The position numbers and the translations under genes were made by a program. From contig NZ_CP119988.1 in the NCBI RefSeq assembly GCF_029338515.1, positions 1,240,001-1,304,000 of the forward strand: DNA of 64,000 nt. The letters run 5' to 3'. Below are positions 17,601 to 52,786 of this stretch, one piece after another (positions within the stretch are counted from its first letter, which is position 1; each line of letters opens with the position of its first letter). Origin of the DNA: Haloglomus litoreum. Lineage in GTDB: Archaea; Halobacteriota; Halobacteria; Halobacteriales; Haloarculaceae. The notes under the pieces were generated by a model. The model was not told the DNA's origin. It worked only from the letters and a program-made list of their open reading frames with translations, and searched no databases.

Positions 17601-18074
17601 GCCCTGGTGCCCCTCGTCGAACAGGTACGCCTTCCCGTGGACGAACCCGCCCTCGTGGCGTCGCACCTCGACGGCGTCCGAACGGAGCCAGTCCACGAGC
17701 TCCCGGAGTCCTTCGTCGACGTTCTCGGAGAACCCGAGCAGGTCCCGGTCCCGCTGGAGGTCATCGTCCAGCGACTGCAGCACCTCGTCAACCTGTTCCT
17801 GGTTGTACTGCTCGTCGTCCAGCGGGTCGCCGGGCTGGCGCCACTCCTCGCGGTCCTCATCGTTAGGTTGGGCGCCGATGAGCAGGCGCACGTCGCCGAC
17901 CTCCTCCAGCCCTTCCCGGACGGAGAAGTACCCCCGCGGGTTGAAGTAGCCCGTCACCACGTCGAGATCCGGTGAATCGCGCAACTCTGCCCCGAGTCCC
18001 GACAGGTAGCTGTTTATCGCGGCGGTGAGGGTGTTACCACCACGATTATCGACGAACTGTGGCCGTTCAGTCAT
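14670..18074 (-). CDS. PLD-like plus SNF2 helicase (restriction-system motor)
   Basis: 1134 residues from the ATG at 18074, which overlaps the methylase stop by 8 bases; an ORF start at 18173 would lie inside the methylase gene. Residues 20-180 form a phospholipase D-like domain: HGKAYLF (146-152) followed by GSSN (162-165) is one HKD motif. The helicase has DEVGLGKT (273-280), VVLDEAHAF (353-361), TATPVNNS, and a C-terminal lobe with ATDVLGQGVNLQ and VVQRNGRIDR. PLD-SNF2 helicases of this size accompany Eco57I-like methylases in haloarchaeal restriction islands and resemble, but are not clearly equal to, DrmD of DISARM. Predicted to move along and cut unmodified DNA. Its partner methylase is broken. 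Confidence 0.8.
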   Translation of the reverse strand: MTERPQFVDNRGGNTLTAAINSYLSGLGAELRDSPDLDVVTGYFNPRGYFSVREGLEEVGDVRLLIGAQPNDEDREEWRQPGDPLDDEQYNQEQVDEVLQSLDDDLQRDRDLLGFSENVDEGLRELVDWLRSDAVEVRRHEGGFVHGKAYLFDEGHQGVVAGSSNFTGAGLNSNLELNLGAYQPQVTEDVSEWFEDLWAESEPYDLAALYEERFEPFDPYIIYLRVLYERYGEELKAEGDDGDGEIELANFQEDGKLRAQRFLEERGGVIVADEVGLGKTYIGGKLLEQTVQQNRQRALVVAPAYLRDGMWKRVRAEWNFFFEVISYSQLRNEQKLGGDSVYLDQKIEDYQMVVLDEAHAFRNPNTQQSQALRQLLRGTPPKDVVMLTATPVNNSLWDLYYLLRYFIRNDAAFADDGIRSLRDRFKSAQSEDPSELNPESLFDVLDQTTVRRTRRFIKDNYDQARLPDGEGGYIYVDFPEQRPRRIDYDFDNTFGDDFFQDIAEGLAAGEDIDESELKLARYRPSYYLEGEDDGSELSLVGLLRTGLLKRFESSSYAFANTLERMVAQNEVALGLLEEGYAPDADAIDEWVEMDSDEGFEEAFDSVGDGEVNARQLTDEDANPEQFRADLENDLEILRYWRDRAAEVTRDDDEKLHALRDTLHDIVSDARDDARAGTTEEAMFDAAFRRNRKVLIFSYYKDTVQWVLDYLQEAVTKDEELSCYEGRIAAVTGDGSVDGVTREDAVHGFAPSSTDAPEGATDDYDILIATDVLGQGVNLQDARNVINYDLPWNPMRVVQRNGRIDRVNSPHDEIFPHCVFPEDRLDDLLGLEHRVRQKLTQAARTIGEDGGIFPDMETVDRNYSDKKADIEALQSEDPDAYEQGGKEAAAYSGEEYRQELRNGLADHEERVTSLPWAAGSGMYGDHPGFFFCARIGEEIYLRFVPADYDESTEGEPDDEEDDPLVRDTLGCLKRIECDPGTERQLPDEARGGVYDAWEEARGDIFSQWQHQVDPRNVQPDVPKILREVEEHLSEHAPTNTDLDGAERARKSVGAPLSRREQREFREIYNDDGLGPVEKSNLFVEKVEELGLEPFESPDPKPRIREEDIQLICWMVITEEETRDWGGLEEQATIGM

Positions 18075-21000
18075 CGTCTTGTTCTGTGTGAACGACTTCC
18101 GCGGAATCACTTGCAGCCAGTTCCCGGATTCGGTCCCGAAGATTTTCCGAGGCCGCATTTTCTGTGAAGTCACTGAGAACCGTGTCGAGGTCCTCCCGTT
18201 CTAGGTCATAACCTTTCGCGACGAGAGCCTCGATTTGGGCACGGATTTCCTCTTCATCAACTGAATTATAGCCGGTGTTACTCGGGACGGGCCGCCCTCC
18301 AGGAAGTGTTTCTATTCCTCCCCGTTGGGTCAACTCCGCGGCCAATTCCGCCGCCTGCTTGATTTCGTCGCCACCCCAGTTCGGGATGGGCAGATTGTTT
18401 ATCATCGGCGCGTTCATATGTCGGTCGACGATTCGGCGCAGCCACCAGTCGCAAGTGAAGCTATTAAAGTAAGCTAGTAGAGCGAGCTGTTCCTCAACAG
18501 ACGTTCCAGACTCGTGTTCGACGGCGTGAATATATCCCTTACAGTAGACGAAACCCCTCTCGGGGAGCATCGTCGAGATCAGCGTTCTGGTGTTGTCGTT
18601 CATCGTGACATAGCGGAACGTCACAGTCGGATGCTCCACCGAGAAACTGATTTCGCCGTCCGACTTCACCATATCATCCTCCTCCTCATACAGTTCTTCG
18701 GGATCCACAAACCGCCGAAATTCCTTCTCCTCGTTTATTTGGAACTGGTCGACGCTTCGGGTCATGAACACTCTCCAATGGTGGGGCTCTCGTTCGCTGT
18801 TTGAGAGATCGCTGTGAGGGCCATATCCGGTAAAATCCCAGCGGGCGTCGTGCTTCCCTTTGAACCAGCCATCCTCTTGCGAGAGCCGGTGTCGCTGTTC
18901 CATTTTCGGGAAGACATCACGCGCACCGCTGTTATCGAACCATGGGACAACCAGCCGATTTTCGGTCGTCAGGTTCGCTAAGTCGTCGTATGAGAGGTGA
19001 ATTGAGTTCGAGAGAGATATCTCATCAATTGCCTCTTCCCGTTCGATAGCCGGCCAGACATAGGCCCCTGGTTCCTCCTCTTCCGGCGACGTGGTGATGA
19101 GGACAATCATATACCGATGTTCCACGTTCTCGAAAATCCATCCGCCACGATTCCTCGCCTGTAGGACAGTCGCCTCAGCATCTTTGAGAAGGCGTCGCCG
19201 TAACTGCTTCCACCCCCCTAGCACGAGACACTGGCGAGGCAGGACATACCCGAGTTCGCCTTCATCATTCAATAAGTCCGTTGAGCGCTCCACAAACAGC
19301 TTGGCGTAATCGTAGTGACCGCGCCCCTGGTCCTTGAACGAACTCCCAACGTACTCTTGATATTGCTCGCGCTGGAGCTGCTCTCGTTCCTCCTCTTTGG
19401 CTTGTTGTGGATACTTTTCCCGGAGTTCGTCCATGTGGTCCTCGCGGCGCGAGGCAGGGATGGTGTTGAGACCGGGATGCCGCGTAACCCAGAACTGCTA
19501 AGGTTCGAATCGGACTTTGTCCCATGGCGGGTTACCGACAATAGTGTCGAACCCCGAACGATTCCCCTCAAACACCTCTGGGAACGCAGTTGGGAAGTGG
19601 AACACGTCAAACGGCTCCAGCACATCCTGTGCGTCCTCATGCGTTGATAGGCCCCCTGGGTCGTCGATGCTCGTGTCAGTGGCGAGTTCCGTGTTAATAT
19701 CTTCGTCGATGCGAGCCGCGGTAAGGATGTCCAGACGTGCGCGTACGGGGGCAAGCGAATCGTCGATGCGATCCCGCGTAGCGCGGGCCTCCTGCACCTT
19801 CTCCGCGCTCGTGTCCGAGACGTTCTTAGCCTTCTGAATCTCGTCGTCGAGCTCGTCGATGATACCGGAACCGCTGTCGAAGTTACCCAGCGTCACCTGG
19901 TCCTCTTCCATCCCGAGTTCGTCGCTCACCTCTCCCAGCGTACCGACGCCGACGAGTGCGTCGCCAGACTGGAGGTTGTAATCGAGGAACGTCAGTGGAA
20001 GCCCAGGGACGAACGTGTGGACCCAGAGAGAGAGCCGTGCGAGTTCCGTGGCAAGCTCATTAATGTCTACGCCGTAGATGCAACGCCGGGCGATTTGCCG
20101 CCGGAGGAGCTGACTGCGCTCGATGTCGGGCGTGTATTCCTCGTCCTCGAAGGCGGCCTCGGCGGCGTTCTTCAGGTTGTCCAGTTCCTCCTCAACGCCG
20201 GTGAGAGTGGTCTCCTGCAGGTAGTTCCGGAACGCTTTCTCGATACGGTCGACGGCGCCGACGAGGAAGTGGCCAGAACCCATCGCGATGTCCGCAGTGC
20301 GGAAGTCAAAGAACGCGTCTGCGGCGGCGGCGTCGCCCTCTTCTTGCCGGATGCGGTCGATTCGGTCGAGATGGTCCTCCAGCGCAGGGTCCAGCGAGTA
20401 ATCGAGGAGGTGCTCGACGAACCGCGTCTTCGTGTAGTACGTGCCGGTGGCCTTTCGCTCGCCGGACTGGCCGTGGAGGTACACCTGCCCCTCCGCGATG
20501 ACGACCTCGTCGGCATCCTCGGCCGGGACGTACTGCTCGTTGCCGTCTGCGGTTTCGGTGGTGAGGTCTTGGTCGGCAACGGAGAGCTCGGACTCCAGCA
20601 AGCCCTCGTAGATGACGCCGAACTCGCGGACCCCGACGTTCCGGAAGTCGACCGGGCCCTCCCAGCCGTCGGGCGTCTCGTCGATGAGGAGGGCTTCGAG
20701 GGCGGGCCCGAACTTCGCATCCGTGAGTTCGACTTCCGAGAGCTGGTAGCCGGCTTCGGTCCAGTCCTTGTTTTTCGAGAGTAGTCGACCATCGTAGGCA
20801 GGCAGGCCCATCGTCGAAGACCCCTCGTGGATGGCCGTGGTGAGCGTCATCACCTCGTCCCAGAGTGTGGTGAGGTTCTCGTCGTACGCCATCCCGTCGT
20901 CGATGTCCCGGGCCTTCTGCTTGATCGAGTACTTGTCGTACTGGTTGTTGCGGTAGCGCGGGAGGAACCGCTCGTCCTCGGCGTAGGCGACGAACAGCAG

Positions 21001-22074
21001 CCGGTACAGTAGCACCAGCGTCATCCGGTAGGTTTCGTCGAGGTCGTCCTTGTCCGGGTCGTCGAGGTCGCGGGCCTCGGCCAGTGCCTCGGCCAGTTGC
21101 GGGACCACATCGTCGTAGATGCGCTCGCGGAGGCGCTCGCCCAGCCCAGTGGCGTACTCCTTCGAGTCCTCCATGATTTCGTGGAGGCTGCCACCCTCCT
21201 GGAGCGCGTCACCGGAGAAGAGAAGCCAAAGATAGGCCGCCTGCTCGTCGTCGAGGAGGCGCGTGTTCACCTCAACGTAGGTGTCGGTCTGGCCCCGGGA
21301 GCCGAAGCCGGCCTCCGGGTTCGTCGTGTAGAGCCGGAGCTGGTCGCCCGAGCTGCCGATGACGTAGTCGAGATTGCGCTGCTCGGCCTGGCGGAGGGCA
21401 TAGGCAACCGGCGAGTCGCCGACGAAGCGGTCCTGCTTGTGCTCGAACGACTCCTCTTCTTCGAGGAACACCGCGACGGCAGATTCGCGACCGTCTTCGG
21501 TGTGTTTGAGAACGTAGCTGTGGTCGGTGTCGCGCTCGATGGTGTAGTTGAGGCCTTCAAGCAGCTCGCGGGGGTCGTCCGCCAGGGCGTTCTGGGCGCG
21601 CTCGGCGGCGTCGGCCCAGTCGTCCCGATTGGGGACACCCTCGGTCAGTTCGTGCGTCGAGAGGAGTCCCTGGTTGTGGAGCCCAGCGAGGTCGTCGGAG
21701 AGCTGCGGGATGGTGTCTTTCAGGAAGCTCCGGGCCGAACTGCCGCTCGGCTTGTCGAGGGCTGCCTCGCAGACGCGTTGGGCCTGCCCCGCATCGATAT
21801 CACGGAACACCATCGGCTCCTCACCACTGGGGCCACAGAGGCCGACCCTGGCACCGCCATACTGCGCGACGATGAGCACCGGCGAGACACGGCCATCCCT
21901 GCGATCCGTGTACGTCGTCTGGAGGAACTCCATGGTGGGCTCGCCGTCAGATTCCGTGACGACGATTTCGAGTCTGTTCCCACTCCCCTCCCCCAGGTAG
22001 ACTTCACACGCGGCACCCGTGCGATCTGATTCCCACGGGATAGCGTCCCCATCTAATAAAAATTCGCCCGACAT
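18067..22074 (-). pseudogene. Eco57I-like N6-adenine methylase, in-frame amber
   Basis: Intact in frame apart from one TAG. From the ATG at 22074 the frame gives 858 codons ending ...GNPPWDKVRFEP, a TAG at 19498-19500, and then continues without shift through QFWVTRHPGLNTIP to the stop at 18067 (1335 codons in all). The methylase motifs are before the stop: DIAMGSGHFLVG (motif I) and NPPW (motif IV, catalytic). The second part, with an ATG at 19434, would hold the target-recognition region and is separately readable. A single CAG to TAG change at codon 859 explains the split. The start at 22074 has a TATA-like box at 22099-22106. The pair with the PLD helicase forms a restriction-modification-like system; it is inactive unless the stop is read through or the halves assemble. 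Confidence 0.75.
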
Positions 22075-22244
22075 GAGACGGGCGACGTATTGACTGGACA
22101 AATATGTGTGGGTCGGTGGAGTCGTAGTATTGAGATTGAGCGGTAATAGCAAGAGTCTCTGGCAGCAGTCGGCTTGGCCTTGGTCATACTAACTACAGTT
22201 TCAGCTACTCACCTGGTAACCGATTCAGCAGATCCGACTGCCTC

Positions 22245-27843: not shown

Positions 27844-29955
27844 CTATTCGAGGCCGAGTATGTCTCGAACGGTATCGTCTAGCCTCGAGGAAACATCTTC
27901 GACGTCCTGTCCACTATCAAGTCCCTCACAAAGGTCGGAATATGCTGCTGCCAGCCGTTTGGCTTCGTCCCTCGGCAATTCCCTTGTGTCGATTATGGGG
28001 ACGTCCTTGAGCTCGTTTGGTTCGATTTTATGTAGCCCACGGGCGTACGTCCGTCCACTCCGCTTCGTGATTTCATCGGCGACGCTGCTGTTCAAGTATG
28101 CCAACAACGCCTCTACCTCCGTATCGTCGAACCCATCGAGTGTGATATTGTGGAGGTTGTTCAGGGTCCGGATATCAGCCCCATTTCGGATGAACCGAAA
28201 TCCATCCTTGCTCATGTACGTGGCCACGATGTCCGGGGTTGCCCGCCAATCAACCGCGTACCAGGGGTCACGGTTGTCAGCTAAGTAACTTTTGTCAGCC
28301 CCAATCTCACGTCCGTGGTCGAGATACGACTGTAACGCTTCGTCCTCAACGTTTCTGAGCTTCTCATCGTCATCATAGCAGTAGAGCAGCCACACTTCGT
28401 CACCACCCTCTCTCCGCGACTCCCAGTGATCGTCGGTGAACTCCAGCTGTTTGAACCCACTCGTCCGGCGGATGAGCCTCGCGAGGTGAGACCGGTCGAG
28501 GTTCCACTCTTCAACCTCGCTCTGAGTCAAACAAAAGTAGTCGTTCTTTCCAGTCGCGATACCGCGTTTGATATCCGCCACCTGACGGAAGGGGGTCAGT
28601 CCCGGAATTGAATCCACCTCCTCCGGGTTGACGTAGTTCCGCCAGTCGTTTTCAACTAACAGTTCATGCTGGGCAGCTCGATTCACCAGGCCGAACTCGG
28701 TCTCCCCCGTCATCGCGCCGTCGACGGCGGCAAGGAGCGTCTCGACGGCGGGCCATTCGTCTACCTTGATGAACGCTGTATCGTGGTCATCACCAATCGC
28801 CCGCTTTTCGAGTAGAGTGATGCAGGGCATGACGTCTGCAGCCCCAAACACCGGCGTGTCCAAATCGAGGAAGACGAACGCCTGAATCGCAAAACGGTCG
28901 AGCAGAAACGCTCGGAGGGTCTCTCCATAAACGGTATCGAAGAACCGGGACGGAGTGATGAATGCCATCCGCCCCCCTTGCCCAAGGAACTGCTCGGAAT
29001 GGGCGAAAAAGTACGCGAACAGCGGCGACTGGCCAGTGATGGAGACCCCTGCCTCTGCATCGAGGATTCTATTGTACCGGCCGCGGCCCTCGTCAAGAGC
29101 GTGGCTCCGAGAGTACGGCGGATTGGCGACAATCGCATCTACTTCGGGAATCCGTTTCGGGTTCCGCTGGTCGAGACGCGTCGACGAGCCATCGACGAAG
29201 GTATCCATATAGTCCGAGTGATGAAAGTTCGGCGACCCATCCCCATTCTCGAGCTTCAACCCTGCAGAGGCCATGACGATCGCTAAAGCGTTTACATCCA
29301 CGCCCCACATCTCAGTTACCTTGCTGGGCTCCGGGGCTGCCTGCTTCTCGTCGTACATGCAGGCAGTCAACACGCCAGCGCCGATGCCCGGATCGAGCAC
29401 CTCATCATCGCCAGCAGTCACGGCCCAGGCGGCCATGAATTCGCCCACGTGCCGGGGGGTACGGAACTGCCCTCGTTCCCGGCGAATTTCGGGCGGAACG
29501 AGGTTTTCGAATAGCTCGCCGATTGCATCTGTGGGCATTTCGAGGCCACGAACGTGCTTTCGGGTATCCAACAGAGGGGCGAACAACTCCGCGTCGATTC
29601 CCTTGACAAGGGTATCGAGCGGGTTCTCGCTGAATGCTTCGTCATCGGTCTCTGCCCCGGCCTGAATCAATTCTGCGTAGATATCGTCGGTCTCAGCGAG
29701 CGGCTCCAGTGCTTCCGATTCCTCCTGATAAATCTGATAGAGCGTAGACTTCAGCAACCGGTTGAAGGCCGCGAGATTGCACATGAGTCGGTCCGGATTT
29801 CCGGCCCCAGTGACACCGAAGTCGGCCATCCAGTCGTTCACTGACGCTGTCCGGTCGTCGGGAAACTGGAGGTATTCGTAGATTTCACTCCCGACATCCC
29901 TTATTTCACCCTCTATCTCCTCTATTCCGTCCGGAGGTGACAGCTGACGGCTCAT
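27844..29955 (-). CDS. N6-adenine DNA methylase with specificity region
   Basis: 703 residues. Motif I is DPGIGAG (188-194), a histidine- and aspartate-rich turn follows, and NPPY at 278-281 is the catalytic motif IV. An N-terminal helical region (residues 60-180, with RRERGQFRTPRHVGEFMA) resembles the type I HsdM/Eco57I N-terminus. Residues 400-703 probably recognise the target (GLTPFRQVADIKRGIATGKNDYF, a TRD-like start). No nuclease or motor gene is adjacent, so this is either an orphan methylase or a self-contained type IIG-like enzyme that has lost its nuclease domain. Product N6-methyladenine is expected. Confidence 0.75.
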   Translation of the reverse strand: MSRQLSPPDGIEEIEGEIRDVGSEIYEYLQFPDDRTASVNDWMADFGVTGAGNPDRLMCNLAAFNRLLKSTLYQIYQEESEALEPLAETDDIYAELIQAGAETDDEAFSENPLDTLVKGIDAELFAPLLDTRKHVRGLEMPTDAIGELFENLVPPEIRRERGQFRTPRHVGEFMAAWAVTAGDDEVLDPGIGAGVLTACMYDEKQAAPEPSKVTEMWGVDVNALAIVMASAGLKLENGDGSPNFHHSDYMDTFVDGSSTRLDQRNPKRIPEVDAIVANPPYSRSHALDEGRGRYNRILDAEAGVSITGQSPLFAYFFAHSEQFLGQGGRMAFITPSRFFDTVYGETLRAFLLDRFAIQAFVFLDLDTPVFGAADVMPCITLLEKRAIGDDHDTAFIKVDEWPAVETLLAAVDGAMTGETEFGLVNRAAQHELLVENDWRNYVNPEEVDSIPGLTPFRQVADIKRGIATGKNDYFCLTQSEVEEWNLDRSHLARLIRRTSGFKQLEFTDDHWESRREGGDEVWLLYCYDDDEKLRNVEDEALQSYLDHGREIGADKSYLADNRDPWYAVDWRATPDIVATYMSKDGFRFIRNGADIRTLNNLHNITLDGFDDTEVEALLAYLNSSVADEITKRSGRTYARGLHKIEPNELKDVPIIDTRELPRDEAKRLAAAYSDLCEGLDSGQDVEDVSSRLDDTVRDILGLE

Positions 29956-30384: not shown

Positions 30385-30590
30385 TCAGCACTCATGCTCG
30401 CGAAGCCGTTCGCGAGTCCCCATTACCCCACAGGCCGGGCACTGCTCGATAGGCGCGCCGAGGTCCGGCGCCCGCTCTCGCAGTACGGCGCGCAACTCGT
30501 CGCGGACTTCAGCATTCCGGGTAAGTCGACTCGCCTTCCGGACTCGCGCCCGGACGAACTGCCAATCCGGCCGGGATCGAGTTCGCTCAT
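30385..30590 (-). pseudogene. Zinc-finger protein copy with frameshift
   Basis: The ATG at 30590 (MSELD) and the body (PDWQFVRARVRKASRLTR... CPACGVMGTRERLREHEC) are in different frames because one base is missing near 30570 compared with the intact copies at 37078 and 40111. The CPACG...H-x-x-C finger itself is preserved. An in-frame start further upstream would begin with unrelated sequence, so the gene is taken as broken. Confidence 0.65.
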
Positions 30591-30690
30591 GCGAACACCT
30601 TGCCAGGCTCCTCACATCCCTCGGCGTGCCTGCCCCCACGCCGGAGCTCGCACAAGTTCTCGCACGTACTCCCACAGCCGAGGCCCCGGC
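30587..30690 (-). pseudogene. C2HC mini-finger copy, degenerate
   Basis: Ends GCEEPGKVFA, like the intact 40-residue protein at 40314, and overlaps the next start by ATGA. The first cysteine of the CLGCG pair is glycine here (RGLGCG), the following segment has extra cysteines, and no start codon was found, so it is probably not functional. Confidence 0.45.
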
Positions 30691-30752
30691 GAAATGCCCG
30701 CCTACCAACGACGTTGAGATCCATCCCACGAGGCCCCTATCCGAGACGACGC

Positions 30753-31697
30753 CTACCGCGGTGGCCACCAATCCAGTGCCGCGTTGTGCTGCTCGATATG
30801 TTCATCAGCCACCAGGGACAGCTCCTCTACTTTCTCCCCGTGTCGGCCGGTCAACGAGAGTTGGAGTGACTCACTCGTAGTCTCGAACTCCGGGTTGAGC
30901 CATATCCGTCCGGATTCATCGAAGGTCCAGAGCCCGGCGTCGAAGGCCATGTGATGGGTCCAGTCCAGCAGGACGACGTTCTCGATATCTTCGGCCAGCT
31001 GCTGGTGGTCGGCCCGGCCGAGGATATGCGAGACGGTAAGCAGGTCCGCGTGTTCGATGCCAGAGAGCGGGCAGCGGTGCTCGAACCGTTCGAAGACGGC
31101 CCGTCTGAACTCGGCGCTCACGTGCACCTGCGTCCGGCGCGATTCCGAGAGCGTCCCGGACGTGTCCTCACTCGCTCCGCCTCGGTCTGCCGGCTGTGTC
31201 CCGGAGTCAGTGGCCGTTGGTTGCGGGACGGTATCTGGTTCCGTCGCATACTGGAACACTGCGTCCCAATCATCGACGTATTTGGCGAGTGGCCCCGAGT
31301 ACTGGCCGTCGCCTTCGATCCAGATCTTCTGGTCGCCTTTGGAGTAGGTCTCCTCCTCGATCAGGTGTTGGGTGAGGAAGATGAAATGGTGCTCGTCGGG
31401 GTCGAACTCGTGTTTGTCCCAGACGTCGAGCGTGATGTTGACGACCGCTCGCTCGGAGCCCTGCTCGATTTTCTCGACTTCGCGGTTGTAGCGATGCCAG
31501 ATGTGCTTCTGGCCCTGTTCGTTTTCGTACTCGCGACTTTTGCCTTCGGAGTACCGGACCTTCCCGATGACGCCGGGGTCCTCCCCGAGCTGGAAGTGGA
31601 AGATGCGGCCGTCGAGATCCGTATCGATGTAGACCCCTCGCTCTCGGGCTTGTTGCTCCAAAAGTGCCAGCCAGTCCTTCGTCGCTTGCGGTGGCAT
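30753..31697 (-). CDS. HNH endonuclease (copy 2)
   Basis: 314 residues from the ATG at 31697, the start conserved in the copy at 38407. The C-terminal domain (residues 200-265) reads CPLSG, LLTVSHILGRADHQQ, DIENVVLLDWTHHMAFDAGLW: the C...H...N...H pattern of the HNH_2 family, with C209, H224, N240 and H248/H249. The N-terminal 150 residues form a separate domain (YIDTDLDGRIFHFQLGEDP, AVVNITLDVWDKHEFD) of unknown role, then a low-complexity linker. Non-specific or modification-dependent DNA cleavage is expected for HNH_2 proteins. Nearly identical to copy 3. Confidence 0.75.
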   Translation of the reverse strand: MPPQATKDWLALLEQQARERGVYIDTDLDGRIFHFQLGEDPGVIGKVRYSEGKSREYENEQGQKHIWHRYNREVEKIEQGSERAVVNITLDVWDKHEFDPDEHHFIFLTQHLIEEETYSKGDQKIWIEGDGQYSGPLAKYVDDWDAVFQYATEPDTVPQPTATDSGTQPADRGGASEDTSGTLSESRRTQVHVSAEFRRAVFERFEHRCPLSGIEHADLLTVSHILGRADHQQLAEDIENVVLLDWTHHMAFDAGLWTFDESGRIWLNPEFETTSESLQLSLTGRHGEKVEELSLVADEHIEQHNAALDWWPPR

Positions 31698-31870
31698 TGC
31701 TGTGTGGTCCGGCGGGAGGTTCATTTCAGTACCGGGCCAGTCGGCTCTACGGCCTTCACCAAGCGAGGTGACCTACTTTGAAACGACCGGGTGGAGAGCT
31801 GTCGAACAGCAGTCTTAGCTGCTCTTGTGGGCGATGTGAGTAAGCACATGGATTAAGTGCCGAACGTTGC

Positions 31871-32035
31871 CTACGACTTGGTATGGGCACGGAGCCACGA
31901 GACGTGGGCGACTTCGAGGGCGTCGAGCCTGCCGCCCACCCTGTTGTTCCCGAAGGTGTTCTCCGTGGCATCAACGATCTCGCTGCTGGTCGGACGGTCA
32001 GCAACGCAGAACTCGACGACAGCCTCAAGTTCTAA
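31871..32035 (-). pseudogene. Possible winged-helix fragment
   Basis: The minus frame encodes ELEAVVEFCVADRPTSSEIV followed by a helix and RVGGRLDALEVAHVSWL, which reads like an HTH domain with its recognition helix. No start codon fits and the upstream sequence is broken by the orc1 fragment that begins at 32106. The rest of 31698-32105 contains nothing recognisable. Confidence 0.3.
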
Positions 32036-32105
32036 TCCCGGGGCTGCTGAGTGCCCCGGATTTCGCTCTCTGACAACTAACGGCGCCTCATTCTTCCCGC
32101 CGAGT

Positions 32106-32483
32106 ATGTACGTCGACGGCTGGCGCAGCGGGACCGAGTACAAGGTGCTTGAGCCGTTGCTCCATCGGCTGGGCTTACGGGCACAAGTCAAGCGCAGCGT
32201 CGCCCACGACGAGTTCCACGAGCTCGTCCGGCAGCATCATGAGCCGTTCGTCGTCGTCCTGGACGAGGTCGACCGGCTGGAGGCGCAGACGCTGCTGCGC
32301 GAACTCATCGAGCATTCCGAGGCGGTTGTGGTCGCGATTACGACCGACGCCGACCGCTGGGTCGGCACGCTCGAGCCACGCCTGCAGTCTCGGGTGACCG
32401 ACCTCCGGCCGCTGGCGGTCGATGCCTACGACACCGAGACGCTGGCGGATATCCTCAGCCCCCGGGCCGCGCGGGCGTTGGCT
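32106..32483 (+). pseudogene. Orc1/Cdc6 internal fragment
   Basis: The frame encodes YVDGWRSGTEYKVLEPLLHR, then SVAHDEFHELV and VVVLDEVDRLEAQTLL (Walker B), an LQSRVTDLRPL arginine-finger region and DILSPRAARALAGG, all collinear with the middle of Orc1 copies A and B. Walker A and the winged helix are missing. The frame runs straight on into an integrase fragment. Confidence 0.7.
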
Positions 32484-32504
32484 GGTGGCGTGGGGCGCGC
32501 TGGG

Positions 32505-32860
32505 GGTGGCGAGTTGCGCTGGAGTGAGGTCGGCGAGTGCTGGTTCCTCGAGGTCCGGGCCAAGAACACCGCTGGGGGTGGGCCGACGGTTCGAGACGCC
32601 TGGATGCTCGAGCCGGTCGAGGCCAACGTGCGGCGGGTCTCACGGGAGCGTGGGCGGGGGAGTGGCGCGTCGTGGGTGCAGGCTTCGAAATCGAGTGTGC
32701 GCCGGTGGGTGACGGCGGCCGCTGGGGAGGTGGCCGAGGACGCCAGCCAGCCCGAGCGGTGGCGTGAGGTCAGCAGTCACGACCTTCGGCGGTCGTGGGC
32801 GACGTACCATCTTGTCGAGCGGCAGACGACGTCCGGACGATGATGGCCATCGGGTGGGGG
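32505..32860 (+). pseudogene. Tyrosine recombinase C-terminal fragment
   Basis: The frame encodes LRWSEVGECWFLEVRAKNT (second half of the catalytic domain), WVQASKSSVRRWVTAA and SSHDLRRSWATYHLVERQ (the HxxR helix), after which one missing base throws VRTMMAIG out of frame. The first catalytic arginine region and the tyrosine are absent. It is fused in frame to the orc1 fragment, and the same end fragment occurs at 845-940. Confidence 0.65.
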
Positions 32861-32902: not shown

Positions 32903-35611
32903 GTGAATGGACAGTGGCCTTCTGGCATGGCATCGGGGCCGGTGAACGAGGATATCGTTGGAGAGGGGGCTGGCCAGATTGAGGTTGTGGACAAGGTGAT
33001 ATTTTATCTGCTATTCGCGACGCCCGGGGCCTCACTGAGGCACCCAAGCGACGCCGTTTCAGATAAAAATCGGGTTGTAAGTAAGCATCTGTTCACAACT
33101 ACAGAGCGGTCTAAATATGCAGTAGCCATCGCAGTGTTATCTCTGGCGATATGGACGGCGCTATCGATAGCGATACCCATTGACTGGCCAGTACCCTCAT
33201 TTGGAACTCAACTTGCCGCCTCAGCCGGATTGTTCGTCGTCGCAAGTTCTATTGCATGCGTAATAGGAATAGATGGGGGCCATTCCAACCTCTCGTTCAT
33301 CGACAGTTCTGATCGCCCCGACATGTTTGACCAGATTGCGACATTTATTGTTTCAGCACCGCTCTTGTTTAGAAATGCTGCGGGTGGATTTGTTGTGGGT
33401 GCATCGATCTCTGTTATTCTTTTCCCTATCGGTCTGGAACAATTTGCCAGTGGAATTGTACTCATCTCGATTATTTCGGCCACGCTGTTTGGCGCGTGTT
33501 GGGTTCTCCCGTTTACATTCATATCTGGGGAGGTAGACAAACTCGATGAGTGGTATTCTGTTTTTGAGCGGTACGAGAAACTACACGAAGACGCTCAAAC
33601 ACTGGAGCAGCAGTTTGATGGAGACATCACCATTGAGACAGCCGAGTTCAATCCGCGACAGTTCGAGAACTTCGATGGTGCCCGTCGGGTGGTCACACGA
33701 TTTGAAACCCTCGTCGATGCGTATGACCGGCTTCTGGAGCTCCGAACACAGCGAGCAGAGATGTCTTCGTCTGGTGATTCAAATCTCGCTACGACCCTCA
33801 TTGAGAGCTACGTACAGTCGTATGATGATGCCGAGAGCGCCACCGAAAGTGTCGATGCACTCGAGGCATGGCTAGACTCGCTCGACAGCTACGCGAGCAC
33901 ATATCAGGATGCCCAGCGCACGGCCTCGGAAACCGGCTTCTCGGAGCATTTCGCTGAAGCGGTTACGTCGCCAGACGCGATTTCAGAGCTGTCATCGCCC
34001 GAGGAGGTGCAAGCAGAAGGACAACGCGCCAGCGAGTGGGTCCACCTCTATCGTGAGTATGCACGGGTAGCAGCGCTGCTCGCTTCAAACACCGACGCCC
34101 CGAGGGGGCGTGAGCTGACCGCAATCGATGGGATTGGAGAGCAGCGTGCTGAAGCGCTGTCCGAAGTGGGGATTACGGATGGCAGTGACCTCTCTACCGT
34201 TGCTCTCTCGACGCTCGTGGACGTCGGTGATATCGGCGAAATCACCGCCTCAAAACTGCAGGCCCGGGCTAAAGGCACGATACATTCGATCCACATCGAG
34301 GACCTTCCAGGCGTCGGCTCAGAGACAGCGCGGGCGTTACGCTCGACTGGCTTCCATACCCTCGAATCGATTGCCGAGAGTTCCGAAGCCGAACTGGCAG
34401 AGGTCCCTGGAATCGGCTCGGCCAAAGCGTCGCATCTGAAAGCGACCGTCGAGTTCGTTCTGGGAGACGGTGTTCCCGAGTCGCATCGGCAACGGGTGAC
34501 CGAGCAATATCGTCCCTCGACGACCAATCTCCAGCGGGCCAAATCAGGCCTCGGCCAACTGCGGGCATGGGTTCAGGCGCACGAACGGTATTTTGACCTC
34601 CGGCTCAAGGCCTACCAGAGTGGCTCGAAGCTTCCCAGCCCGGCGGGGCAGACGGTCCCGTTCTCAGTGGCTGACGCCGCACCCTGGACCTGCACGACGG
34701 TCGGCGACGCACAAGCGGCGCTTGACGAGCTTGACACGGTAATTACGTCACTCGGGCAGTACCAGACCGCGCGGAATCGGCTTGAGGCAGTGAGTGCTGA
34801 ATCCTCGGACGGGGCGGCATCCGAGATACTGCAGGCAGTGGAGACCCAGCTTTGGACGGCCGAGTTGCCTGACGAGCTCCCCGCGATATCCGCACGTCTG
34901 GCGACTGCTGAGCGTCATCTCGACCTCGGCCGCGAGGTGATCAACGCGATGGAGCAGTATCCAGACTACCCGTTCGACAGCCTTGTTGAGGCACTGATTT
35001 CGTCGGTCGAATCCGAGTCGCGGGCCGAGGACTCTGTGGCGGAGCTTCGCACCCTCGTTGAGAGCTCGGTGCAGGTCCTCGAGTATCTTCAGACGGTCGA
35101 CCCCACCCACCCCGCAATTGAGGCCGAGCAGTGGCAGCGGACGATTCGCACGGCGCTCGAGGAGCGGTTCCCGGATTCCGTGATTCCGGTTCAGAAGCAG
35201 GTGCAGCGGCTCAAATCCTCCCGCTGGACCCGAACGCAACTCAACGACCTCGATTGGGCTGAGTTCGAGGTGATTATTGCAGCCCTGTTCGACGCCCGTG
35301 GATACGAGACCGAAGTGACCGCCGGGACGAAAGACCTCGGCGTCGACGTGTGGGCCGAGGCTGGCGACGAACGGATCGCGATTCAGGCAAAGCACTTCAC
35401 GGACGGGAATACCGTTGGCCGGGAAACGCTGCAGAAGCTCTCGAGTACGCTCGCGAAAGGCGATGCAGACCGGGCGATCGTGGTGACCAGTTCGTCCTTC
35501 GCGTCGACAGCCGAGCAATATGCGGCGGACTTCCCGCAGGGGCTCGAACTGATGGACGGGGATGACCTGCTTCGGGCGCTGAGCGAATCTGGCGTGCCGC
35601 CGCCTGTCTAA
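32903..35611 (+). CDS. Membrane-anchored HhH-Mrr nuclease
   Basis: 902 residues; the ATG at 32927 is an alternative. Four hydrophobic segments near residues 72-93, 101-123, 160-178 and 183-206 should place the N-terminus in the membrane. Residues 210-400 are acidic helices, probably coiled coil. Residues 405-520 contain repeated helix-hairpin-helix motifs (AIDGIGEQRAEAL, DLPGVGSETARAL, EVPGIGSAKASHL), which bind DNA. A second helical stretch follows, then an Mrr_cat nuclease (about 785-895): LDWAEFEVIIAALF, GVDVWAEAGDERIAIQAKHF. The D...Q-A-K active site is intact. A membrane-bound type IV-like nuclease could cut incoming DNA at the cell surface. It is flanked by orc1 fragments. Confidence 0.75.
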   Translation: MNGQWPSGMASGPVNEDIVGEGAGQIEVVDKVIFYLLFATPGASLRHPSDAVSDKNRVVSKHLFTTTERSKYAVAIAVLSLAIWTALSIAIPIDWPVPSFGTQLAASAGLFVVASSIACVIGIDGGHSNLSFIDSSDRPDMFDQIATFIVSAPLLFRNAAGGFVVGASISVILFPIGLEQFASGIVLISIISATLFGACWVLPFTFISGEVDKLDEWYSVFERYEKLHEDAQTLEQQFDGDITIETAEFNPRQFENFDGARRVVTRFETLVDAYDRLLELRTQRAEMSSSGDSNLATTLIESYVQSYDDAESATESVDALEAWLDSLDSYASTYQDAQRTASETGFSEHFAEAVTSPDAISELSSPEEVQAEGQRASEWVHLYREYARVAALLASNTDAPRGRELTAIDGIGEQRAEALSEVGITDGSDLSTVALSTLVDVGDIGEITASKLQARAKGTIHSIHIEDLPGVGSETARALRSTGFHTLESIAESSEAELAEVPGIGSAKASHLKATVEFVLGDGVPESHRQRVTEQYRPSTTNLQRAKSGLGQLRAWVQAHERYFDLRLKAYQSGSKLPSPAGQTVPFSVADAAPWTCTTVGDAQAALDELDTVITSLGQYQTARNRLEAVSAESSDGAASEILQAVETQLWTAELPDELPAISARLATAERHLDLGREVINAMEQYPDYPFDSLVEALISSVESESRAEDSVAELRTLVESSVQVLEYLQTVDPTHPAIEAEQWQRTIRTALEERFPDSVIPVQKQVQRLKSSRWTRTQLNDLDWAEFEVIIAALFDARGYETEVTAGTKDLGVDVWAEAGDERIAIQAKHFTDGNTVGRETLQKLSSTLAKGDADRAIVVTSSSFASTAEQYAADFPQGLELMDGDDLLRALSESGVPPPV

Positions 35612-37077: not shown

Positions 37078-37299
37078 TCATGCCCGCCCCCGCGTGCAGT
37101 CATGCTGCTCGAGCCGCTCCCGTGTCCCGAGCACCCCACATGCCGGGCACTGCTCGATGGGCGCGCCGAGGTCCGGTGCCAGCTCACCCAGCACGGCCCG
37201 CAACTCGTCGCGGGCCTCGGGATGGCGCGTGAGCCGACTGGCCTTCCGGACCCGTGCCCGGACGAACTGCCAGTCCGGCTCGGGCTCGAGCTCACTCAT
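37078..37299 (-). CDS. CPACG zinc-finger protein (copy 3)
   Basis: 73 residues from the ATG at 37299 that overlaps the upstream finger gene (ATGA). MSELEPEPDWQFVRARVRKA is followed by a second helix (RDELRAVLGEL) and CPACG...RLEQHDC, a C2HC zinc knuckle. The basic first helix suggests DNA or RNA contact. It differs from the 40111 copy mainly in the last ten residues. It belongs to the cassette with an HNH nuclease. Confidence 0.65.
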   Translation of the reverse strand: MSELEPEPDWQFVRARVRKASRLTRHPEARDELRAVLGELAPDLGAPIEQCPACGVLGTRERLEQHDCTRGRA

Positions 37300-37478
37300 G
37301 CGAATACCTCGCCGGGCTCCTCGCAGCCCTCGGCGTGGGCGTCCCCACGCCGGAGTTCGCGCACGCTCTCGAATTCGGCGCCGCAGCCGAGGCACCAGCG
37401 AATTACCTCTCCTCCCAACGAGATCCAGAATAATGCCACGAGCCCCTTCCCAGAGACGACGCCTACCGCGGCGGCCAC
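37296..37478 (-). CDS. C2HC mini-finger (copy 3), start uncertain
   Basis: The last 36 residues (IRWCLGCGAEFESVRELRRG... HAEGCEEPGEVFA) match the 40-residue finger protein at 40314, with all zinc ligands present. The ATG of that gene is not conserved; the ATG at 37478 lies inside the HNH gene, and an internal GTG is also possible. It may be translated by coupling to HNH. Confidence 0.4.
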   Translation of the reverse strand: MAAAVGVVSGKGLVALFWISLGGEVIRWCLGCGAEFESVRELRRGDAHAEGCEEPGEVFA

Positions 37479-38407
37479 CAGTCCAGTGCCGCGTTGTGCT
37501 GCTCGATATGTTCATCAGCCACCAGGGACAGCTCCTCTACTTTCTCCCCGTGTCGCCCGGTCAAGGAGCGCTGGAGTGACTCACTCGCCGTCTCAAACTC
37601 TGGGTTGAGCCAGATGCGTCCGGATTCATCGAAGGTCCAAAGGCCGGCGTCGAAGGCCATGTGATGGGTCCAGTCCAGCAGGACAACGTTCTCGATATCT
37701 TCGGCCAGCTGCTGATGGTCGGCCCGACCGAGGATATGCGAGACCGTGAGCAGGTCCGCGTGTTCGATTCCAGACAGCGGGCAGCGGTGCTCGAACCGTT
37801 CGAAGACGGCCCGTCTGAACTCGGTGCTCACGTGCACCTGCGTCCGGCGCGATTCCGAGAGCGTCCCGGACGTGTCCTCGCGCACTCCGCCCTGGTCTGC
37901 CGGCTGCGTCTCGGAGTCAGTGGCCGTTGGTTGCGGGACGGTATCTGGCTCCGTCGCATACTGGAACACTGCGTCCCAATCATCGACGTATTTGCCGAGT
38001 GGGCCAGAGTACTGGCCCTCGCCTTCGATCCAGATCTTCTGGTCGCCTTTGGAGTAGGTCTCCTCCTCGATTAGCTGCTGGGTGAGGAAGATGAAATGGT
38101 GCTCGTCCGGGTCGAACTCGTGCTTGTCCCAGACGTCGAGCGTGATGTTGACGACCGCTCGTTCAGCGCCCTGCTCGATCGCTTCGACCTCTCGGTTGTA
38201 TCGATGCCAGATGTGCTTCTGGCCCTGTTCGTTCTCGTACTCGCGGCTCTTTGCCTCAGAGTACCGGACCTTCCCAATCACTCCTGGGTCCTCCCCGAGC
38301 TGGAAGTGGAAGATGCGTCCGTCGATGTCGGTGTCGATGTAGACTCCTCGCTCTCGGGCTTGTTGTTCCAATAGCGACAGCCAGTCCTTCGTCGCTTGCG
38401 GTGGCAT
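37463..38407 (-). CDS. HNH endonuclease (copy 3)
   Basis: 314 residues, same length and start (MPPQATKDWLSLLEQQ) as copy 2 and differing at only a few percent of residues. The HNH_2 core is intact: CPLSG, SHILGRAD, ENVVLLDWTHHMAFD. The two copies differ mostly in the linker (residues 165-185) and in single charged residues of the N-terminal domain, so they diverged recently. Coupled to the two finger genes downstream. Confidence 0.75.
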   Translation of the reverse strand: MPPQATKDWLSLLEQQARERGVYIDTDIDGRIFHFQLGEDPGVIGKVRYSEAKSREYENEQGQKHIWHRYNREVEAIEQGAERAVVNITLDVWDKHEFDPDEHHFIFLTQQLIEEETYSKGDQKIWIEGEGQYSGPLGKYVDDWDAVFQYATEPDTVPQPTATDSETQPADQGGVREDTSGTLSESRRTQVHVSTEFRRAVFERFEHRCPLSGIEHADLLTVSHILGRADHQQLAEDIENVVLLDWTHHMAFDAGLWTFDESGRIWLNPEFETASESLQRSLTGRHGEKVEELSLVADEHIEQHNAALDWWPPR

Positions 38408-38869
38408 TGGCGTGTAGTCCGGTGGAGGGGTAATTGCAGTACCGGGGCAGTCAGTTCTTCGACGTTCACCAATCTAAGAGTCCTCGTTGAGATTCACCAT
38501 CTCGGCCCGCCTAGAACCATCGCCGGACTGGTATGCTACCCCCACCGTATCCAAGGCCCTGTACCGATATCTGCGGGTAGTTTCAGCACTCGAGACGTCC
38601 TTTGTCACCGTTATGTCTGACGCTTTACTTTCACCGCACTTACCCACTACTTACCAGGATTTAGTCCGCATGTACTTATGCGAAGCCGTGACAAGTGAGT
38701 TAACGTACGGATTCGTCCGATAAGATTGGACGATGCCAGAAGACATATACGAGCAAATCCCGAACCTATTTACCCGCTCCAGACTGGGTGACAGGTAATC
38801 GGGAGTCAGGCAATCAAGACGGCTGGCCACCGTCCGGACATGAGGTGTCCAGAACCGGCCACCAGGGGA
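38408..38869. other. Intergenic region, no gene seen
   Basis: The stretch between the HNH copy and the Panacea-like gene has no convincing reading frame. It probably holds divergent promoters; no strong repeat was found. The short ORFs on either strand have no recognisable product. Confidence 0.4.
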
Positions 38870-39373
38870 ATGTCAATCCACGTAAATGAGGATAATGGCC
38901 TCGATGAGGAAGCGCACTACATCGGAGGCATCATCAAACGAGTCGGTGAGTTCTCCAACAGGTCATTAGAAGGTCGAAAGAAATTCCAGAAGACCATCTA
39001 CCTCATCCAAGCCGCTGGTATCGACCTGGGGTATGAGTATAACTGGTACGTCCATGGCCCCTACTCCCCCGAACTTGCAAGAGTCGGGTACCGGCTGGAA
39101 GAGATGTATGAAGATGTCTCGCCGACGAAATTCTCTGATGAGGAGATTGAAGGACGATTCCAGGAGGTACTCCAGTTCCTGGATCCGATAAAAGACGATG
39201 TGGAGAAGCTTGAGGCAGCTGCCTCGCTACACTGGCTTTCGGAGAACAACGAGGATTTGCCCCACGACATCTTAATCGACTATCTGCTTGAAGAGGAAAA
39301 ATCTCATCTAGACCTCACGCCTGAAGACTGCGAGGCTCTGTGGGATGGGATGGCTACTCTGAATATCGTCTGA
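38870..39373 (+). CDS. Panacea/YwgA-like protein (possible antitoxin)
   Basis: 167 residues from the ATG at 38870 (an ATG at 38840 adds ten residues). The core GRKKFQKTIYLIQAAGIDLG, YEYNWYVHGPYSPELARVGY matches the SocA/Panacea and YwgA-type pattern: K-x-x-K-x-x-Y helix, then the H-G-P-Y-S motif. In the known Panacea system this domain neutralises very diverse toxins encoded next to it. The following gene starts 6 bases after the stop and encodes a membrane protein, so the two are likely an operon. Antitoxin function is an inference from this context. Confidence 0.55.
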   Translation: MSIHVNEDNGLDEEAHYIGGIIKRVGEFSNRSLEGRKKFQKTIYLIQAAGIDLGYEYNWYVHGPYSPELARVGYRLEEMYEDVSPTKFSDEEIEGRFQEVLQFLDPIKDDVEKLEAAASLHWLSENNEDLPHDILIDYLLEEEKSHLDLTPEDCEALWDGMATLNIV

Positions 39374-39379
39374 TTACGG

Positions 39380-39958
39380 ATGCTGAATTACGGGTCATTC
39401 TTCCTGACTGCAGCTTCGATTTCTGCAGTGCTACTGGGAATCTGTGTTTCCCTGAGAAATAATTCGTTTTCCAGTCTCTTAGACCCAAATGTCGATAATG
39501 TAAAGGTAGAGAACAAGAACTATGACGAAGTACTGAAGCGTTCCGCGAAGTACTCAACATTTGCTGGAGCAGCATTCGTCGTTAGCACTATCATGGGTTC
39601 TCTCTCATTTCTTCTCACTCACTCTCTCCTCTCGAGAAATCCAACCACGCTATGGCAATTGACTATATTCAATTCGGCACTGTTCATTATCGGGATCCTA
39701 TGTCTAGGTTGGGCCCTGATATTTGATTATACAACCGTTCAATCGCCGATTTCATTTGAGTTGACGTGGCCACCAATCGATTTTAATCCACCTGAGCATG
39801 ATGGAAGCTCTCGTCCAGACACAGTTCCAGTAGATGAAGATACGGATTCCCCAGATTCCCCATCGAGAGACCAGGCAGGTTCCGAAGGACTGGATCTTGA
39901 TGGGCCGTCAAGTGACCGAGATGGGGGTACTGAACACAACAGTCCCGACACAGAGTGA
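39380..39958 (+). CDS. Membrane protein with acidic tail (possible toxin)
   Basis: 192 residues. Three hydrophobic segments are visible: FFLTAASISAVLLGICVSL (7-25), FAGAAFVVSTIMGSLSFLL (61-79) and FNSALFIIGILCLGWALIF (96-114). The last 65 residues are disordered and rich in D, S, P and E (SSRPDTVPVDEDTDSPDSPS). It is directly downstream of the Panacea-like gene. Codon use is more AT-rich than the island average. Membrane effectors are common partners of Panacea antitoxins, but no toxin family is recognised. Confidence 0.55.
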   Translation: MLNYGSFFLTAASISAVLLGICVSLRNNSFSSLLDPNVDNVKVENKNYDEVLKRSAKYSTFAGAAFVVSTIMGSLSFLLTHSLLSRNPTTLWQLTIFNSALFIIGILCLGWALIFDYTTVQSPISFELTWPPIDFNPPEHDGSSRPDTVPVDEDTDSPDSPSRDQAGSEGLDLDGPSSDRDGGTEHNSPDTE

Positions 39959-40110: not shown

Positions 40111-40317
40111 TCAGCAGCTATGCTCCCGCAGTCGCTCCCGCGTCCCCAGCACACCACAGGCTGGACACTGCTCGATGGGTGCCCCGAGGTCCGGCGCCAG
40201 CTCACCCAACACGGCTCGCAGCTCGTCACGCGCTTCAGGATGCCGCGTGAGCCGGCTCGCCTTCCGGACCCGCGCTCGGACGAACTGCCAATCCGGTTCG
40301 GGCTCGAGCTCGCTCAT
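40111..40317 (-). CDS. CPACG zinc-finger protein (intact form)
   Basis: 68 residues; MSELEPEPDWQFVRARVRKA, helix RDELRAVLGEL, then CPACGVLGTRERLREHSC. Last gene of a three-gene operon in which each start overlaps the previous stop by ATGA. Both cassette copies at 30.4 and 37.1 kb derive from this or a common ancestor. No enzyme motif. Likely nucleic-acid-binding. Confidence 0.65.
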   Translation of the reverse strand: MSELEPEPDWQFVRARVRKASRLTRHPEARDELRAVLGELAPDLGAPIEQCPACGVLGTRERLREHSC

Positions 40318-40436
40318 GCGAACACCTCGCCGGGCTCCTCGCAGCCCTCGGCGTGCCTCTCGCCGCGTCGGAGTTCGCGCACGCTCTCGAATTCGGCGCC
40401 ACAGCCCAGGCACCGCGCCATCGCATCGGCGCTCAT
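40314..40436 (-). CDS. 40-residue C2HC zinc-finger protein
   Basis: ATG at 40436 overlaps the upstream stop and its own stop overlaps the next start. The product is MSADAMARCLGCGAEFESV, ELRRGERHAEGCEEPGEVFA, with a C-x2-C...H-x4-C knuckle. All zinc ligands are present, and the reading frame is preserved in the degenerate copy at 30587 and the copy at 37296, which supports real coding. Confidence 0.6.
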   Translation of the reverse strand: MSADAMARCLGCGAEFESVRELRRGERHAEGCEEPGEVFA

Positions 40437-45449: not shown

Positions 45450-45510
45450 AGGGATGTGGACAACAGGTTGGTAGCCCCCTACCGGCTTGGAAGATTTTGT
45501 CCACATCCCT
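45450..45510. promoter_or_regulatory. 14-bp inverted repeat upstream of the integrase
   Basis: AGGGATGTGGACAA (45450-45463) and TTGTCCACATCCCT (45497-45510) are perfect complements with a 33-base spacer. They lie 34 bases upstream of the integrase ATG and overlap its TATA region, and before the right-hand gene train (start 45575). Could be an operator controlling integrase and train, or recombinase arm sites. Confidence 0.6.
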
Positions 45511-50665: not shown

Positions 50666-52786
50666 ATGGACCGACGGGAGGAGGTGGTGTTCAATGCGCT
50701 CTTGGACTACTGCCAGCGCACCAACACAGAGACGGTGTCACAAGTCGATGTGCATAACGTCGGGCTCCCAGCGTTGGAGGATGCCTATCCTGACGTTGAT
50801 GCCTATGGTAGTCAACTCAAATCAGCAGTTCAGACGCTGATCAAGGAGGACGCTCTCGAAGTAACACCAGATAATGAGTATCGGCTGTCTGCCGATGCTG
50901 TCGAGCACACTGCTGAGCAGCCAACGCAAACCGCGACATCAACAAGAGAGCAATCAGAGACAGACGAGGCTAAAACGCCGACTGCAACCGAAACGAGCGG
51001 CGGGCCGACGCAGAAGCCACAGAACGAGACGAAGGCTCCACCCTCTTCAGACGAACCCTCCGAGCTGGAGACGAAGTCACTGTATGAGCTTCTCCGGTCA
51101 TGCCAGATGGGGGAAGCGGGGGCGATTGTCGGCGGGCACATTGACAAAAACGAGCTTCGAAAGGAGCTGTATATAGAGACGGCTGAAGACGACCTCCTCC
51201 GAGAGTTCTTTGTCGAAAACTACGCGAGAGACGGGAAACATCTCGTGATCACTGGCAGCGCAGGTGATGGGAAGAGCGCGCTGCTCTCACGAGCTTTCAA
51301 AGAGGCACAGTCGACCGACGTTGATCTGGAACCGGAGCATATCCACATGGACGCAACCGCGTCCCGTGGGAAGCATCAGACGTACGACGATACCCTTGCT
51401 GACTTTCTCGACGCGGTTTCGAAATGTCTCGATCAAGAAGCTGGGCCGCGAACCGGGCTCGCGATCAATCTGGGACTTGCAATCGATTTCTTCGAACGGC
51501 AGGGATACAAATCTGAATACGGCCAAGTCTGGGAGGCGATTGATGCCTGTCGAAATGAACCCCGATACGAGACTGATCAGGTAACTGTCCTGAACCTTGG
51601 CCACAGGTCGACGTACTCGACCGCCCCTGACGAACTCGGCAAGGGGCTCCTGTCGAAGATTGTGGAGAAATTCGCCTTTGATGACCCCGCGAGCCCGTTC
51701 TACCACGCCTACCAGCAAGCTAACGACCGCTGTCCCGCCGTTGATCACTGCCCTCTCCACTATAATGCTCGCCAGTTCACGGATCCAGAGATCAGAGAAG
51801 AAGTGGTCGAACTCATCGCTGCAACTGGTCTGATCAACAATATCTATCTGAACCCGCGGATGATTCTGGATCTCGTTTCTAAGATTATTGTCCCAGAATC
51901 GATGCAGCCGGTGCCTGATACCGATAATGAATGCCCTGTCGGCCGGTCGGCGAACTACGGCCGACAATTCGATCCGGATGTTGTAATCTGGAACGCGCTA
52001 TTCGAACGTCTTGGCACCCACGAGGACGGAAACCGTGGGCTGCTTGATCCGGCAGCCCAGGCTGAGAAGGCGACTGATGAAGAGATCCTTAGCTGGGGAG
52101 CCGGCCCGAGTGCCCTGAATCAGGCGCTTGATGATACCCCAGCACTGGAAGGCAAGCCGCTCGAAGCTCGTGCCAGAACCGCCCTGAGGAAAGAATACGT
52201 CTCTGGTGAATCAAACGTCCGTACGGCGCGGGACTGGTCGTGGTTTCAGGAATTCACTGGCGCCCTCACATTCTTTGATCCTCCGCAGGACAGATCTGGC
52301 GACCCGTACAAACAAGACGCCAGCAGTGCCGTCACGACCGTGACGAAGGCGCTCAAGGGGTGGACTGGACGATCCGACGAGACCGATGACTGGATCGAAT
52401 TCGTGGACGGAGTTCAGGGAGATTACAAATTCCTCTCGAAGTGGGAGAAACCAACGCCCAGTCTTGAAGCCTCGAAGTCTCAAACCCAGACGGAGACGAT
52501 ACCCGGGCAGCTTTGGATTGTGCTTCAGCCAGGGGGAGAGACGCTCGAGATCCCCGTCCCGATCACATTCGGATTGTACTTGCTGATGAAACGAATCAGC
52601 CGAGGATACAGACCCAATTCGCGTGATCTGGAGCGCTCGGAGGGCATCCGACTTATCCAATCCCGGCTGTCCGAATTCACTGACAAGAAAGATACGGTCC
52701 GTATTGAGAATAAGTCAGATGAGACGGTCCTCCGGCTCGAGCGCGACGCGTTCGAAACGATTCAGGTTCGTTCAGGTGAGCTGTAA
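50666..52786 (+). CDS. dptF: DptF-like ATPase
   Basis: 706 residues. Residues 1-75 look like a winged helix (EEVVFNALLDYCQRTNTETV). A disordered S/T/P/E-rich linker follows to about 140. The ATPase begins YIETAEDDLLREFFVENY, with Walker A GSAGDGKS (197-204); the S-G/A-G-D-G-K-S form and the preceding charged helix resemble DptF of the phosphorothioate restriction module. A Walker B near VLNLGHRST is uncertain. DptF acts with DptG and DptH to restrict DNA lacking phosphorothioate. It heads a three-gene operon with gaps of 2 bases and an overlap. Other ATPases of defence operons are an alternative. Confidence 0.55.
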   Translation: MDRREEVVFNALLDYCQRTNTETVSQVDVHNVGLPALEDAYPDVDAYGSQLKSAVQTLIKEDALEVTPDNEYRLSADAVEHTAEQPTQTATSTREQSETDEAKTPTATETSGGPTQKPQNETKAPPSSDEPSELETKSLYELLRSCQMGEAGAIVGGHIDKNELRKELYIETAEDDLLREFFVENYARDGKHLVITGSAGDGKSALLSRAFKEAQSTDVDLEPEHIHMDATASRGKHQTYDDTLADFLDAVSKCLDQEAGPRTGLAINLGLAIDFFERQGYKSEYGQVWEAIDACRNEPRYETDQVTVLNLGHRSTYSTAPDELGKGLLSKIVEKFAFDDPASPFYHAYQQANDRCPAVDHCPLHYNARQFTDPEIREEVVELIAATGLINNIYLNPRMILDLVSKIIVPESMQPVPDTDNECPVGRSANYGRQFDPDVVIWNALFERLGTHEDGNRGLLDPAAQAEKATDEEILSWGAGPSALNQALDDTPALEGKPLEARARTALRKEYVSGESNVRTARDWSWFQEFTGALTFFDPPQDRSGDPYKQDASSAVTTVTKALKGWTGRSDETDDWIEFVDGVQGDYKFLSKWEKPTPSLEASKSQTQTETIPGQLWIVLQPGGETLEIPVPITFGLYLLMKRISRGYRPNSRDLERSEGIRLIQSRLSEFTDKKDTVRIENKSDETVLRLERDAFETIQVRSGEL

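Follow-up and report, generated by a model that had tools for sequence, protein, structure and literature searches.

A 902-residue protein combining hydrophobic segments, HhH pairs and an Mrr domain

In the 64,000-nucleotide stretch of Haloglomus litoreum DNA analysed here (the window, positions 1240001-1304000 of a 4.70-Mb contig), the gene at 32903-35611 on the forward strand encodes a protein of 902 residues in which membrane segments, a helical linker, HhH pairs, a second helical region and an Mrr_cat nuclease domain follow one another. The frame begins with GTG and contains no internal stop, which agrees with a preliminary description that had placed all of these parts in one protein. Its exact start codon is uncertain, with other in-frame starts lying nearer the first membrane segment. 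The membrane domain (residues 73-205; 33119-33517, + strand), delimited by hydropathy, holds four hydrophobic segments (residues 73-91, 105-123, 160-178 and 184-202) with mean Kyte-Doolittle values of 2.0-2.4 and not a single charged residue. Four such segments within 135 residues occurred in 0 of 5000 shuffles of the 902-residue sequence, and the four N-terminal membrane segments described earlier are thereby borne out. The longest predicted loop is 36 residues, leaving almost no external part, and the charge distribution gives a weak hint of an N-in/C-in arrangement, in a topology derived from hydropathy only.

Behind the membrane domain comes an acidic linker with a net charge of -27 (residues 206-402; 33518-34108, +), whose helices appear in a low-confidence structural model, in line with the helical region first described. 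It leads into two (HhH)2 domains of a DNA-binding type (residues 403-518; 34109-34456, +), where Pfam finds HHH_5 in two stretches (E 3.3e-21) and HHH (PF00633) three times; they are similar to the HhH domains of RadA/Rad51 and of L32e. Three canonical hairpins can be seen by eye (GIG at about 410-412, GVG at about 470-472 and GIG at about 502-504), as had been reported, and the earlier count of three is slightly low because a degenerate fourth (VGDIG, about 442-446) completes the two (HhH)2 domains. A second helical region (residues 519-776; 34457-35230, +), recognised from alignments and from the low-confidence model, contributes its final ~65 residues to a conserved C-terminal module. The Mrr_cat domain itself (PF04471, residues 781-892; 35243-35578, +) is matched with an E value of 3.5e-27 and a score of 95.2 bits against a curated cut-off of 21. 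Its D...(E/Q)-x-K active site is complete, as first claimed, with D815 and Q828-A829-K830 (35345-35392, +) invariant or conserved in alignments, and the upstream E789 is present and conserved in relatives too. The single-sequence AlphaFold2 model is poor overall (mean pLDDT 40), its best part being the second HhH pair (about residues 460-520, block means 57-79). That the gene encodes an intact Mrr nuclease predicted to be anchored in the membrane is well supported by the sequence.

The gene lies on an element that has integrated at a tRNA-Thr gene. A 99,739-bp unit is present twice, head to tail, contig positions 1185736-1285488 being identical to 1285475-1385227, and a second, identical copy of the Mrr gene is found 99,739 bp downstream. 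The junction between the two copies is marked by a 14-bp att repeat, CCCCCTACCGGCTT (45475-45488, +), which is the 3' end of tRNA-Thr(CGT). The duplication may reflect two genuine integrations in tandem or may have arisen in assembly, and none of three congeneric genomes showed an empty integration site. Each unit carries genes for a tyrosine integrase, a Cdc6-like protein, a DNA polymerase B and a GHKL ATPase, together with defence-type genes (DndF- and DndH-like, a type IIG/DrmMI-like methylase, a PLD-SNF2 helicase and a TaqI-like methylase), HNH genes and five Mrr_cat proteins. In the window, the DndF-like protein and an 1884-residue DndH/HerA-like protein make up a Dnd-type restriction module at 50666-59836. 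The PLD-SNF2 helicase (1167 residues) and the type IIG/DrmMI-like methylase (884 residues) lie at 14670-22152, a pair that is either DISARM-like or HKD-Snf2. An N6-adenine DNA methylase with a TaqI-like specificity domain is encoded nearby (27844-29955, - strand).

The Mrr gene stands alone, with no partner gene, between two near-copies of an HNH_2 gene (30753-31724 and 37463-38407, both - strand) that form direct repeats of 82-90% identity. With the segment downstream of the HNH gene included, the direct repeats span 30388-31724 and 37096-38407, with a partial third at 40114-40413 (80-90% identity). Directly upstream of the Mrr gene, an open reading frame at 31857-32843 resembles the remains of a Cdc6-type ATPase joined to those of an integrase; its AAA match is weak and it is probably a pseudogene. 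At 38840-39958 are two adjacent small genes that may form a toxin-antitoxin-like pair: one is like part of DarG (PADLOC, 2.9e-8) and the product of the other has hydrophobic segments.

A shared nuclease module behind differing N-terminal parts

A search of 146 genomes from the family and 393 from the phylum gave no other whole-length match to the 902-residue protein, nor did a whole-protein search of named genomes find a relative, and for residues 1-398 the matches in other genomes were marginal at best (E 0.005-0.008). Close relatives of the nuclease module occur in 25 of 392 genomes of the order. What they share is the C-terminal ~190 residues, preceded by unrelated modules that differ between relatives; hhalign detected no homology among these N-terminal halves, in a single-sequence comparison that is a weak test. 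The search for homologs with the same order of parts, which the preliminary description had proposed, thus recovers the C-terminal module, whereas HhH repeats and membrane segments come together in this one genome. Such patchiness tells against a housekeeping or element-maintenance nuclease that would tether and process the element's DNA during recombination or segregation, as does the surrounding cluster of defence-type genes. This explanation draws on RmuC, in which the order of parts is identical (PMC1189080), on the RadA/Rad51-like HhH domains and on the Cdc6-like and DNA polymerase B genes that the element itself carries, and we consider it very unlikely.

The hydrophobic part varies even among the nearest relatives. 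A 650-residue paralogue on the same element (49% identity over residues 718-896) has three segments above threshold and probably a fourth, by eye, and lacks HhH. The nearest named relatives, WP_015323231.1 of Natronococcus occultus and WP_128909922.1 of Halorubrum sp. BOL3-1, are both plasmid-borne and share ~41-42% identity with the 902-residue protein over the C-terminal 226-241 residues; the former has five or more membrane segments without HhH and the latter HhH without membrane segments. We dropped the Halorubrum protein as a clean membrane-less homologue, since insertion sequences flank it: its frame is open from the end of an upstream IS701 and an IS4 gene overlaps the frame's end, so that truncation of the protein is possible. 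The impression, by eye, of a PH-like domain at its N terminus was likewise abandoned, as Pfam shows none. Among the other relatives, one (L198) has two membrane segments in front of the shared module, a 681-residue type has two with a ~160-residue region between them, and a third (L197, 1052 residues) carries soluble helical repeats instead and no membrane segment. Since close relatives (L197 and the Halorubrum protein) do without membrane segments, the module does not depend on anchoring.

In five further relatives (L050-L053 and L200), a Tat-like start, called by eye and not by a prediction program, and a PQQ-type propeller precede the shared module, with or without a DnaJ domain, and in L200 a membrane segment follows the propeller ahead of the helical-nuclease part. 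These large proteins are encoded at L050 7701-10775, L051 4756-7572, L052 7502-10528, L053 8625-11765 (- strand) and L200 6997-9858, and three of them end in a DnaJ domain. A broad alignment of eight sequences had no stretch conserved enough for scanning. With a tighter alignment, the matches were limited to a fragment from Halobellus and one weak match in bacteria, and viral contigs yielded nothing. Mrr matches in phage records were weak only.

How unusual a membrane-associated Mrr protein is can be judged from haloarchaeal Mrr_cat proteins at large. The anchored fraction is approximate, because the sample was enriched for relatives of the 902-residue protein and 25% of shuffled sequences score at a looser threshold of 1.6: in 65 of 121 open reading frames, one or more strongly hydrophobic segments (Kyte-Doolittle 1.9 or more) lie beyond the nuclease domain, and in 32 of 81 after reduction at 80%. 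The segment is C-terminal only in 56 of the 65, N-terminal only in 8 and at both ends in 1. To place anchored and unanchored proteins on the nuclease-domain tree, 15 changes of label are needed, at least 4 of them forced by strongly supported branches. The statement that most Mrr enzymes are soluble therefore fails in haloarchaea, where, with about half of the Mrr_cat frames examined carrying a segment, it gives no ground for surprise at an anchored one. A widespread haloarchaeal protein of ~456 residues, for example at L077 514-1878 (- strand), has an N-terminal Mrr_cat domain and a strongly hydrophobic segment in its C-terminal tail.

A proposed nuclease at the inner face of the membrane

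We give even chances to the proposal that the 902-residue protein is a membrane-localised anti-virus nuclease, a defence system consisting of a single protein. It would lie against the cytoplasmic side of the cell membrane, held by its four N-terminal helices, which may also recognise a component of the host or viral envelope. The acidic helical stretches would keep the nuclease and both HhH pairs at a distance from the membrane; those pairs would grip the DNA backbone without sequence preference, and the C-terminal Mrr domain would cut DNA arriving at the membrane, whether a haloarchaeal virus genome during injection or some other DNA coming in. Self DNA would escape mainly because most of the chromosome lies away from the enzyme, a principle shown for the bacterial protein SNIPE (PD-lambda-1; Saxton et al. 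Nature 2026). Membrane localisation, a cytoplasmic orientation, binding and cutting of DNA, the trigger and action against viruses are all inferred.

Several observations favour this defence reading. First, an intact Mrr_cat domain, HhH pairs and four predicted segments are combined on an element with other defence-type genes. Second, a conserved nuclease behind apparently interchangeable N-terminal parts is also the pattern of SNIPE homologues. Third, putative anchors or envelope-facing modules recur (the 650-residue paralogue, the Natronococcus protein, L198, the 681-residue type and L200). Fourth, the nearest named relatives are plasmid-borne, and there are precedents in SNIPE (PMC13190303) and in a propeller-Mrr fusion (PMC9519451). 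Against it stand the membrane-less close relatives, the confinement of HhH plus segments to one genome and a topology read from hydropathy.

SNIPE is membrane-bound and cuts phage DNA during injection, and it becomes toxic to the host once its membrane helix is removed; its protection is direct and non-suicidal, and transformed plasmid DNA is not blocked (PMC13190303). Cutting of DNA where it enters the cell, as suggested in the preliminary description, has a direct precedent in SNIPE and is a plausible activity of the 902-residue protein, which may work like SNIPE. The plasmid-transformation assay suggested there could be misleading, given that SNIPE left plasmid transformation unhindered (PMC13190303). 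The same result weighs against a role in keeping out competing plasmids, related elements or mating partners in place of viruses, an explanation to which the integrated element and the plasmid-borne named relatives lend some colour and which we would be surprised to see confirmed. A different role for the membrane part is conceivable, namely that it transduces a signal: on sensing envelope damage or virus adsorption, it would release or activate the Mrr domain, which would cut any DNA, the chromosome included, in an abortive response. The large N-terminal modules of some relatives, likely to face outward (the Tat-like starts, the PQQ-type propellers and the membrane segment of L200), and the ~160 residues between the two segments of the 681-residue proteins fit such suicide. 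However, the 902-residue protein has almost no external part, and SNIPE, the closest architecture with data, is not suicidal, so that we regard this alternative as unlikely.

If the defence reading is true, archaea also tell self from foreign DNA by place, at the membrane, and not by sequence or modification, and they do so with another nuclease and another DNA-binding part than bacterial SNIPE, which would be a convergent defence strategy. It would also explain the frequency of hydrophobic segments in haloarchaeal Mrr-domain proteins. The gene is a defined candidate for testing in a tractable host. More tentatively, and at somewhat less than an even bet, we propose a haloarchaeal class of membrane guards of DNA entry, convergent with SNIPE, in which one conserved C-terminal Mrr module, borne on mobile elements, would be joined to interchangeable anchors and sensors (multi-helix membrane domains, Tat-exported propellers, DNA-holding HhH domains).

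Comparison with known nucleases and defence systems

The nearest likeness is to SNIPE, which also combines, in a single protein, a variable N-terminal membrane-targeting region, a helical DNA-binding middle and a conserved C-terminal nuclease. In SNIPE homologues the nuclease is conserved and the N-terminal regions are highly variable, with one, two or no membrane segments, 34% having none predicted (PMC13190303); a poorly conserved N-terminus, membrane-targeting by hydropathy, before a conserved nuclease is found here as well. The differences are as clear. SNIPE contains GIY-YIG and DUF4041, neither of which has a Pfam match in the 902-residue protein, where Mrr_cat and HhH take their place; E. 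coli SNIPE has a single N-terminal membrane helix and not four; and SNIPE is a bacterial protein whose function has been shown, whereas ours is archaeal and known from sequence. Because GIY-YIG and DUF4041 are absent, the 902-residue protein is an architectural analogue of SNIPE and not a member of its family.

Type IV enzymes of the Mrr kind (H. volcanii HVO_0682, E. coli Mrr) share the catalytic domain family of the 902-residue protein and the residues of its active site, and the Mrr_cat domain matches PADLOC type IV models. Haloferax volcanii Mrr (HVO_0682) restricts methylated DNA (PMC4389544). The 902-residue protein could likewise cut foreign-methylated DNA anywhere in the cell, its membrane part being a detail of location. 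Yet it adds membrane and HhH modules and has no recognised Mrr-type N-terminal recognition domain (no Pfam match at E <= 1). HhH as a rule binds DNA non-specifically, and the adenine-type methylases on the same element would need to be tolerated. We find ordinary modification-directed restriction improbable and prefer the membrane-localised nuclease.

Other systems resemble parts of the plan. The antiphage protein of Vassallo et al. 2022, a beta-propeller-Mrr fusion (PMC9519451), unites an Mrr-family nuclease with a sensor-like module, and haloarchaeal relatives are propeller-fused too, but its Mrr domain is N-terminal, while that of the 902-residue protein is C-terminal and without a propeller. 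Zorya ZorD, an SNF2 helicase with an Mrr-like nuclease, is matched in its nuclease part only, the helicase being absent. RmuC shares the succession of membrane helix, coiled coil and PD-(D/E)XK nuclease (PMC1189080) and differs in its nuclease family (McrC-like, with no RmuC match here in Pfam at E <= 1), its single helix and the absence of reported HhH. COG4741 proteins, archaeal and membrane-associated, join an N-terminal helix to a PD-(D/E)XK nuclease and were proposed, from predicted function, to protect cells from DNA of foreign origin (Kosinski et al. 2005, PMC1189080); they differ in having a YraN-like minimal nuclease, one helix and no reported HhH.
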